From Parvibaculum indicum (lineage in GTDB: Bacteria; Pseudomonadota; Alphaproteobacteria; Parvibaculales; Parvibaculaceae), in assembly GCF_011762095.1 (NCBI RefSeq), contig NZ_JAASQO010000002.1, forward strand, positions 186,001 to 250,000: a stretch of 64,000 nucleotides of DNA, given 5' to 3'. Below, piece after piece: positions 1,188 to 7,004 of this stretch. The notes beneath the pieces are model-generated. The model saw nothing but the letters and a program-made list of their open reading frames with translations. It ran no database searches and was not told the DNA's origin. A program made the position numbers and the translations under genes. Within the stretch, counting starts at the first letter, position 1; each line of letters begins with the position of its first letter.

Positions 1188-1988
1188 ATGATTTACATTT
1201 TTCCCGATAGCGGCGAATTCTCGCCCGCGGTGGCGCAGAACAGGGCGCGCAAGATGCGCGAAATCCTGTCCGTGGCGCTGGATCTCGCGGTGGAAGGCGG
1301 GCTCGACAATCTGACGCTGCACGGGCTGGCCGACCGCATGGGCCGCTCCGTCGCCGCCGTCTATCGCTACTACCCGTCCAAGGAGGCGGTGGTGCGTGAG
1401 CTGCAACGGCTGGTCGCCACCCATATCGGCGTGCTGAACGCGGACACCGCCGAGCGGATCGACGACTGGGCACGCGAAAAAGACCTGTCGAAACAGGACC
1501 TTGCACTGGCGCAGGTGATCGGCTCGGCCAAGACCTACGAACTTTTCGCCCTCGCCTCGCCCGCCGAGTTCGGCCTCGTGACGCACTATCTCGGCAATCC
1601 GGCGGACGTTCTGCCGGAGCAGGATGTGCGCATGGTCTTCGACGTGACGCGCGAAAACCTGAAGCGGCTGGCCGAATTCATCGCCGACGCGCAGGATAAG
1701 GGCGCCATCGGACCGGGCGATGCGCGCGAGCGGACGCTGATGATCTGGGGGGCCCTGCAGGGCACGATCCAGCTTCTGAAGGTGACGCGGCGCGGCGCGG
1801 CCTGGGGCGAGGCGGAGACGCTGCCCGACGCCACACTGCATGCGCTGCTGCAAGGTTGGGGAGCCTCAAAAGCGAGATTGAACATAGTTTCGAGCGAGAT
1901 TGAGCGAGAGGCTCTCGCAGCCCCGACAAGACAGGTGCGCGATCTCCTGACACCCGAAAAAACATCGACGCCGAAAGCGGCGGACTAA
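1188..1988 (+). CDS. TetR/AcrR family transcriptional regulator
   Basis: A 266-residue regulator with an N-terminal TetR helix-turn-helix at about residues 25-70: the stretch [16 protein letters not shown] is the usual recognition helix and following turn. The C-terminal two thirds are a helical ligand-binding domain with no recognisable specificity. The start at 1188 is preferred over 1152 because the conserved domain then begins at a normal distance; neither has a strong ribosome site. The stop lies 17 bp before the amidohydrolase gene, and the two are probably co-transcribed, so the regulator may control that enzyme and itself. The long C-terminal tail is rich in charged residues and is not obviously part of the domain. 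Confidence 0.85.
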
Positions 1989-6441: not shown

Positions 6442-6812
6442 TGTCGTCCCGGCACTTGTTGCCGGGACCCACTCTCGGACCCGCAGGCGATGAGCTATTT
6501 CGTCTACATCCTCGCGAGCCGCAAGCACGGTACGCTTTACATCGGCGTGACGAACGACCTTGCCCGGCGTGTTTGGGAACATCGGGAGGGAAAAGGTTCG
6601 CACTTTACCGCGAAGCACAAGGTTCACCGCCTCGTCTATGTCGAACCCTTCGAGGCAATCGAACGGGCGATCCAGCGTGAAAAGACAATGAAGGAATGGC
6701 CGCGCGCGTGGAAGATAAGGCAGATCGAGAAGGACAATCCCGAGTGGGACGATCTCTACGACCTGCTGAACCGATAGGCGAGTAGGCCCCGGGAACAAGT
6801 CCCGGGGCGACA
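6442..6812. mobile_element. Paired-hairpin unit carrying a GIY-YIG gene (family A, copy 1)
   Basis: The unit begins TGTC followed by a 9-bp stem hairpin with loop CTTGT (6446-6468) and ends with a mirror-image 9-bp stem hairpin with loop ACAAG (6786-6808) followed by GACA. The ends are therefore terminal inverted repeats that are themselves palindromes. Between them is a single gene, the GIY-YIG nuclease at 6490-6777, whose stop is 9 bp from the right hairpin. A second unit with the same ends begins 19 bp away. I infer a small mobile or formerly mobile element; no target duplication is visible. Confidence 0.6.
6490..6777 (+). CDS. GIY-YIG nuclease family protein (stand-alone domain)
   Basis: A 95-residue protein that is one GIY-YIG (URI-type) nuclease domain. 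It opens with YFVYILASRKHGTLYIGVTNDLARRVWEHR: the YVY/YIG-type strands, the conserved Arg of the first helix and the His-Arg pair are all present, and a Glu (about residue 58, VEPFEAIERAIQREK) fits the metal-binding position. The C-terminus is the usual NPEWDDLYD stretch. It is often annotated as a UvrC fragment but is a complete small protein. The function of this family is unknown. It sits exactly between two inverted hairpin ends, with no other gene in the unit, so I infer that it acts on those hairpins or their copies. Confidence 0.9.
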   Translation: MSYFVYILASRKHGTLYIGVTNDLARRVWEHREGKGSHFTAKHKVHRLVYVEPFEAIERAIQREKTMKEWPRAWKIRQIEKDNPEWDDLYDLLNR

Positions 6813-6831: not shown

Positions 6832-7004
6832 TGTCGTCCCGGCACTTGTTGCCGGGACCCAATCACGGATCGGCAGGAGCAAAGCTGCTTTGTTCATCTC
6901 CTCGCAGGCGACAAAACGCGAAAGAGGAGCCGTCGAAGGGGGCAATCGCGACGACCTGCTAAACCGACAGGCGAGTAGGCCCCGGGGATAAACCCGGGGC
7001 GACA
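6832..7004. mobile_element. Deletion derivative of the GIY-YIG hairpin unit (family A, copy 2)
   Basis: The left end is identical to copy 1 for 30 bp (6832-6861 against 6442-6471). The right end keeps a matching hairpin (6979-7000) followed by GACA. Just inside it, 6953-6986 matches the last codons, stop and following bases of the GIY-YIG gene (6760-6793) with two differences, one changing the TAG stop to CAG. The rest of the gene is missing. It looks like a non-autonomous remnant of the same element and lies between copy 1 and the end of thiC. Confidence 0.65.

Follow-up and report, generated by a model that had tools for sequence, protein, structure and literature searches.

A nuclease gene between mirror-image hairpins

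At positions 6442-6812 of the window, by which we mean the whole 64-kb stretch of DNA that was analysed, lies a unit of 371 bp. Direct reading of the sequence resolves it into a TGTC-tagged 9-bp hairpin, a GIY-YIG nuclease gene and the mirror image of the hairpin (Table 1). This is the arrangement that the original prediction had described, and it is confirmed by the sequence reading, by the folds of the two ends and by the copies of the hairpin elsewhere in the genome. Folded as single-stranded DNA, the left hairpin (6442-6470) reaches -11.3 kcal/mol (z -4.96) and the right hairpin (6784-6812) -12.6 kcal/mol (z -5.39), and in neither case did any of 200 shuffles equal the value. Both ends have a 9-bp stem and a 5-nt loop. 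They are not identical: in register, 24 of 29 positions are the same, and four of the five differences fall into two stem pairs (positions 6/26 and 12/20) in which one change compensates the other, which preserves the hairpin shape. The first stem pair is G-C in both copies, the left one starting GT/AC and the right one GC/GC, and the tail at the right end, reading from the tag, is CTA where the left end has CCA.

Table 1. Features of the unit and of the adjoining shortened pair (window positions)
Feature	Position	Strand	Description
Left REP hairpin	6442..6471	+	tag TGTC 6442-6445, stem 6446-6454, loop CTTGT 6455-6459, stem 6460-6468, tail CCA 6469-6471
Stand-alone GIY-YIG nuclease gene	6490..6777	+	95 aa; PF01541 53.7 bits
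Right REP hairpin, mirror image	6783..6812	-	tail 6783-6785, stem 6786-6794, loop ACAAG 6795-6799, stem 6800-6808, tag GACA 6809-6812
Left REP of shortened pair	6832..6860	+	29 bases, same sequence as the unit's left REP
Putative remnant of the unit's interior	6861..6975	+	right end matches clearly, left end weakly, middle missing
Right REP of shortened pair	6976..7004	-	DNA fold z -3.08

A scan of the 64-kb window for CGTC/TGTC hairpins gave nine matches against seven in the reversed-sequence control. The two hairpins of the unit and the two of a neighbouring pair are the only ones we judged convincing; the other five were taken for chance. The hairpins of the unit are not chance, and it is repetition across the genome, not the window scan alone, that separates true from chance matches: the left hairpin has 32 copies in the 4.02-Mb genome at up to three mismatches, while the reversed pattern has none.

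The neighbouring pair (6832-7004), which the original prediction had overlooked, adjoins the unit and encloses only about 115 bp. Its right REP has an 8-bp stem and a 6-nt loop. Local alignment of its right inner part with the right end of the unit scores 28, against a maximum of 17 in 60 shuffles. The left inner part matches more weakly, in register after the hairpin over about 50 nt and into the start of the coding region; taken alone, this match scores 17 and equals the shuffled maximum. We read the pair, a single case, as a probable decayed, gene-less derivative of the unit that would have arisen by internal deletion.

The 95-aa protein

The match of the 95-aa protein to the Pfam family PF01541 (GIY-YIG) stands against a cut-off of 22.6 bits; T5orf172 is the only other Pfam family found, and no model of the NCBIfam library matches. 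R27 and E64, which we take to be the catalytic Arg and Glu of the GIY-YIG family, are conserved without exception in an alignment of 77 relatives (rows with stop codons omitted). In the PDB, the predicted structure (pLDDT 93.4, pTM 0.85) comes closest to the UPF0213 protein BH0048 (E 1.3e-4); Slx1 and a further UPF0213 structure come next, with weaker E values from 0.02. By sequence, the best PDB matches are two UPF0213 proteins. The domain together with the conserved Arg and Glu places the protein in the GIY-YIG nuclease superfamily. An HUH/Y1 transposase domain is absent from the protein according to Pfam, and the fold is nearest to UPF0213 and Slx1.

Its own genome holds nine GIY-YIG matches in all, the further ones being absent from the original prediction, and a phage collection yielded three weak relatives. 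In line with the guess that the gene is misread as a UvrC fragment, three of seven Sphingobium records annotate it as excinuclease ABC subunit C. The copy in Sphingobium TomTYG73 (L168) is in two pieces and carries no annotated gene.

Relation of the hairpins to the CGTC-tagged REP superfamily

The hairpins recur in the genome as dispersed pairs laid out as tag, hairpin and CCA, a spacer of about 20-45 nt, and the mirror image of the same elements. Pairs with their tags outward are common; 59 distinct ones were counted over all stretches analysed, with a median spacer of 30. Seven stretches of the genome selected as REP-rich (121 kb) gave 57 matches in the hairpin scan, some of them visibly chance stem-loops, against none in the reversed sequence. 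The types found at the ends of the unit (A left, B right) also form the commonest dispersed pair, with six of the 16 pairs on which the pairing of REP types in this genome rests. Many other copies start with AT in the stem, unlike those of the window. We found no direct target-site duplication in the 59 distinct pairs: a 3-base match occurs once (expected 1.05) and a match of at least four bases never.

With these properties the hairpins fit the CGTC-tagged REP superfamily of Di Nocera 2013 (PMC3733652). Shared with it are the unpaired CGTC/TGTC tag, a stem of 8-9 bp, a loop of 4-5 nt, the CCA tail at the left end and the paired layout, as well as dispersed copies that often form pairs in opposite orientation. 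There are also differences. In the superfamily the stem is described as starting 'almost invariably' with two A-T pairs, whereas the first stem pair in the copies of the window is G-C, and their right-end tail is CTA and not CCA. The paper also equates dRS3 with CGTC-1. It states that these repeats "apparently lack a dedicated transposase", reports them without association to transposase genes and leaves open what moves them; here, in contrast, a dedicated nuclease gene is present.

Pairing of gene and repeats in relatives

Two samples of relatives were examined for repeats around the gene. The first consists of the best 80 of 560 confirmed stretches, fetched by protein sequence alone and therefore biased to close relatives; 76 have full flanks. 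For each, the 180 bp on the upstream side were compared with the 180 bp on the downstream side, and the best ungapped inverted match was scored, with at least 15 as threshold. An inverted repeat at this threshold flanks 56 of the 76 relatives and 2 of 788 other ORFs that served as controls in these loci, and outward CGTC/TGTC-tagged hairpins stand on both sides in 37/76 compared with 1/788. When flanks were swapped, so that the upstream part of one gene was compared with the downstream part of another, 14 of 237 combinations scored at least 15.

The second sample was drawn evenly from the class and comprises 241 alphaproteobacterial genomes, 87 of which have a match at E <= 1e-10 and 72 a strong one (best E below 1e-29). 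Besides the window's own locus it provided 127 loci (29 of the 30 given by the search, 94 further listed places and the four paralogues of the own genome), and flanks of 200 bp were complete in 123. The threshold is reached in 67/123. Among 640 random positions, all placed in first-sample loci, it is reached by 1, and among 491 swapped flanks by 11. Thus, in both samples more than half of the homologues are flanked by inverted repeats, the opposite of what would have spoken against the original prediction. The other 56 of the 123 loci lie below the inverted-repeat threshold; imperfect or direct repeats are present at some of them and no repeats at others. When direct repeats are counted along with inverted ones, 34 of a subset of 43 loci (40 random ones plus own paralogues) are flanked; for direct repeats the other GIY-YIG clades serve as control.

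The original prediction had confined the system to Alphaproteobacteria. It holds within the class and is in fact wider. In the same phylum outside the class, 12 of 28 loci have inverted repeats and 20 of 28 have inverted or direct ones, counts that have no control alongside (28 loci of 33 listed, five partial or contig-edge ones being omitted). Inspected by eye, ten records of a plasmid collection have tagged repeats on both sides in eight cases, including N. gonorrhoeae, Spirosoma and Planktothrix. Two plasmid copies from Rhizobium, closely related to each other, lack an upstream REP and have a single hairpin 183 bp downstream. The N. gonorrhoeae record, which is filed as a plasmid and is 2.17 Mb long, has a GIY-YIG gene (L164, 3001-3270) with dRS3-like CGTC repeats, CGTCATTCCCGC..., on both sides. 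This is the likeness to Neisseria dRS3 seen in the one Neisseria record examined. The pairing of gene and REPs is general and extends beyond Alphaproteobacteria.

Some of these distant loci have further features. The Planktothrix family member (L169, 2995-3279) lies between an MmeI-type restriction gene and the DISARM gene drmA, near further GTCAT-tagged repeats. Two small genomes (L245 and L309) have family members beside unusually long palindromes that start with a GTCAT tag.

Nuclease clades and repeat load

The other GIY-YIG genes of the genome were compared within the same sample of the class. A second GIY-YIG clade, represented by a gene at 1489-1755 of locus L002 and by the class loci L348-L377, is likewise associated with repeats: 14 of 25 loci have inverted ones, and 16 of 25 when direct repeats are included. 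Its repeat is a different one, CTGAG...TCGAAG (CCTCATCCTGAGCTTGTCGAAGG and kin). The clade of the L004 gene, which we presume to be UPF0213-like, is flanked in 2 of 27 loci, and both of these places are also listed in the second clade. For the clade of the L003 gene the counts are 0/28 inverted and 2/28 direct. The L003 gene itself (1480-1713, minus strand), which represents a third GIY-YIG type in the own genome and is counted among these 28 loci, sits between long direct repeats and, by eye, beside an apparent tRNA gene. A tree of 130 rows mostly separates the GIY-YIG groups, with many weak forks; as exceptions, two first-clade rows and one second-clade row carry repeats that a crude rule assigns to the type of the other clade.

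Repeats were counted in the 241 genomes with one exact pattern per repeat, which misses other stem types; the reversed controls gave 0 for both. At least five CGTC REPs are present in 26 of the 72 strong carriers and in 6 of the 169 other genomes (Fisher 1.2e-10, a p value that is too small as the genomes are related). REP-rich genomes are thus rare among those without a strong family member, and this second finding, too, is the opposite of what would have told against the original prediction. For the CTGAG repeat, at least five copies occur in 11 of 27 second-clade carriers versus 4 of 214 others. Genomes with the first clade only have at least one CGTC REP in 28/58 and at least one CTGAG repeat in 5/58, those with the second clade only in 0/13 and 9/13, and those with neither clade in 16/156 and 9/156, respectively. 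Across the 241 genomes, CGTC and CTGAG repeats each follow their own enzyme clade.

Within families that contain both kinds of genome, carriers are higher in CGTC REPs in nine, lower in three and tied in the rest (sign test p 0.073, hand tally). Six of the 32 genomes with at least five REPs have no strong family member. A Pfam GIY-YIG search of these six and of two other genomes gives one match in each of the six, a long reading frame that we read as UvrC, and one of the six also holds a broken gene of the L003 type. Many genomes carry a single copy of the nuclease gene. A match of REP type to paralogue was seen within the genus and discounted, as it is not independent of descent.

Presence and absence of units

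Among 27 genomes of the genus, the own one included, seven congeners have units 74-77% identical to that of the window, and the homology begins and stops no more than about 12 bp from the ends of the hairpins. Comparison with 14 other units, of which ten belong to congeners and four to the own genome, showed none that shares flanking sequence with the unit of the window. The congener units L132/L134 and L133/L135 share both flanks, so some units have been inherited in place. Two congeners share a syntenic stretch in which each carries the unit at a site of its own and lacks it at the site of the other; the junctions of these reciprocal sites are too diverged for a base-exact comparison. The congener that is most similar around the unit of the window has a single REP-like hairpin in place of the unit and its neighbour. 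At two intergenic sites of another stretch, compared between this congener and the own genome, the sequence is unrelated.

Similar differences occur in other genera. In Azospirillum lipoferum 4B a unit separates sufB from sufC, and it is absent in the three relatives compared, and in Shinella the unit is present in two genomes and absent in two. At the corresponding sites of the three Azospirillum relatives and of two Shinella relatives there is no REP pair, and the unit thus came or went together with its REPs. Sphingobium TomMM15 and TomTYG46 have the unit between fnrL and a regulator gene. At the corresponding site, TomTYG64 (L178) has a single double-tagged palindrome and TomTYG74 (L177) a decayed version; in two further relatives no intact one is present. 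This palindrome looks like a left and a right REP joined together and could be an excision scar or the product of a simple deletion between repeats.

Units thus appear to come or go at corresponding sites, and in each case the direction might be gain or loss. The original prediction had likened the gene and its hairpins to a one-gene mobile unit and proposed a comparison of occupied with empty sites; presence and absence at corresponding sites agree with it, but no base-exact empty site was found among the Azospirillum, Sphingobium, Shinella and congener sites compared.

Discussion

Here we describe a small nuclease gene that is framed by palindromic repeats in a large part of its relatives. 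The gene and its REPs occur as a pair, the clades are specific for their repeats, the repeat load matches the clade, units are present at some sites and absent from the corresponding ones, and one shortened derivative adjoins the unit of the window. We consider it likely that the unit represents, in its autonomous form, a REP system with a stand-alone GIY-YIG nuclease, that the dispersed REP pairs are its short, gene-less form, and that the nuclease cuts REP hairpins and in this way helps to spread both the REP pairs and its own gene. The REPs would form hairpins in single-stranded DNA, or else cruciforms. A nuclease with an Slx1-like fold might then cut at the junction of the unpaired tag and the stem, and the freed piece, REP-core-REP or REP-gene-REP, would be inserted or copied elsewhere by host repair without a target duplication. 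The branched-DNA substrates named in the titles of Slx1 structures fit such a structure-selective enzyme. The cutting of the hairpins, the position of the cut and the role of cutting as the driver of dissemination are what we infer here. Against this reading speak the six REP-rich genomes that have no strong family member, the sign test within families, the 56 loci of the second sample below the threshold, the two Rhizobium copies with a single hairpin, the units inherited in place, the 59 REP pairs free of target duplication and the search for a base-exact empty site, which yielded none. Of the original prediction that the nuclease moves or maintains the paired palindromes of Alphaproteobacteria, the association therefore stands, while moving and maintaining, like cutting, keep the rank of a proposal.

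We regard the nuclease as a strong candidate for the missing enzyme behind CGTC REPs. More tentatively, with confidence somewhat short of even, we suggest that it represents a second, independent kind of REP system in bacteria, in which at least two GIY-YIG clades would each mobilise a palindromic superfamily of their own (CGTC REPs and CTGAG...TCGAAG) by structure-selective cutting of hairpins.

A different role for the nuclease would be that of a homing-like selfish gene. It would cut gene-free REP pairs, and repair from a copy that carries the gene, in which the REPs serve as short arms of homology, would insert the gene, while the REPs themselves spread by other means. The GIY-YIG domain was first seen in homing endonucleases (PMC1564403). 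In the window the gene takes the place of the core of a REP pair, and the end types of the unit are also those of the commonest dispersed pair, 6/16. The Azospirillum and Shinella relatives compared have no REP pair at the corresponding site, so that the unit would have come or gone there with its REPs, and the repeat load that follows the enzyme clade is left unexplained. We hold homing to be unlikely.

Somewhat less probable still is a caretaker function, in which REP hairpins that stall replication are resolved or trimmed by a domesticated nuclease, which stays close to them on that account but does not spread them. The branched-DNA nucleases of the Slx1 type among the nearest solved folds and the single copy in many genomes would agree with such a function. 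However, a caretaker has no need to sit exactly between two REPs, to change place between congeners or to leave a shortened copy behind, and REP-rich genomes without the gene exist.

That REPs moved by something else picked up a small gene with another job, for example against phages, is very improbable. Such a passenger would agree with the REP-rich genomes that are without the gene and with the as yet hypothetical cutting by the nuclease. Two Caulobacter GIY-YIG genes, whose membership in this family is not implied, are repressed by host and phage XRE regulators, and a benefit during infection is suggested by the authors (PMC10688885). Against a passenger stand the flanking of 56/76 relatives compared with 2/788 neighbouring ORFs, the two clades with two different repeats, and the report that CGTC repeats are not associated with transposase genes (PMC3733652).

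The likely reading, that the nuclease spreads REPs by cutting their hairpins, has several consequences. CGTC REPs are a large superfamily that was described in 2013 without a dedicated enzyme, and a candidate of 95 aa makes the question directly testable. The nuclease may also explain why related bacteria differ so strongly in their REP load. If the reading is true, the task of spreading palindromic repeats has been taken on by enzymes that are unrelated to each other, and there is a function for the genes that now go by the name "excinuclease ABC subunit C" or "GIY-YIG nuclease family protein". If the reading with two clades is true as well, DNA would spread without any known transposase chemistry, and some of the most widespread short repeats of bacteria would be explained.

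The original prediction had known of no formal description of such a system. The repeats are in fact a named superfamily, but a link between them and GIY-YIG nucleases was found in no paper of the literature searched, which had most subscription journals and bioRxiv preprints outside its scope; within the same scope, the number of papers containing both "CGTC-tagged palindromic" and "GIY-YIG" is 0. The string "palindrom" is nowhere in the accessible part of the 2006 GIY-YIG survey (PMC1564403), nor is "nuclease" or "GIY" in that of the 2025 RepRanger paper. REPs and the GIY-YIG domain were both known already, and the link between them is new as far as the literature searched goes.

Comparison with known systems

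Slx1, UPF0213 proteins and GIY-YIG homing endonucleases share the catalytic domain and fold of the 95-aa protein. The difference lies in the surroundings of the gene, which is bounded here by palindromes, whereas the L004-gene clade, UPF0213-like by our presumption, is not flanked. Homing enzymes usually have an extra DNA-binding part. With respect to a classical transposon and its MITEs, the target duplication is absent here, and an internally deleted derivative is present in one case.

The closest likeness in layout is that to REP/RAYT (TnpA-REP) and REPINs, whose features are in part described in PMC3733652. In both systems a single small gene lies between inverted palindromic REPs of a dispersed family, and gene-less REP pairs with their tags outward are dispersed in the genome. 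The RAYT enzyme, however, is an HUH tyrosine transposase, while Pfam and fold indicate a GIY-YIG nuclease here; the tag of RAYT REPs is GTAG, that of the present ones CGTC/TGTC (TGTC in the window); and within the sampled genomes the system described here is found mainly in Alphaproteobacteria. The analogy to RAYT drawn in the original prediction thus holds for the layout and not for the enzyme, which is unrelated. The system resembles REP/RAYT in its layout, but neither by its enzyme nor by its tag is it a RAYT member.
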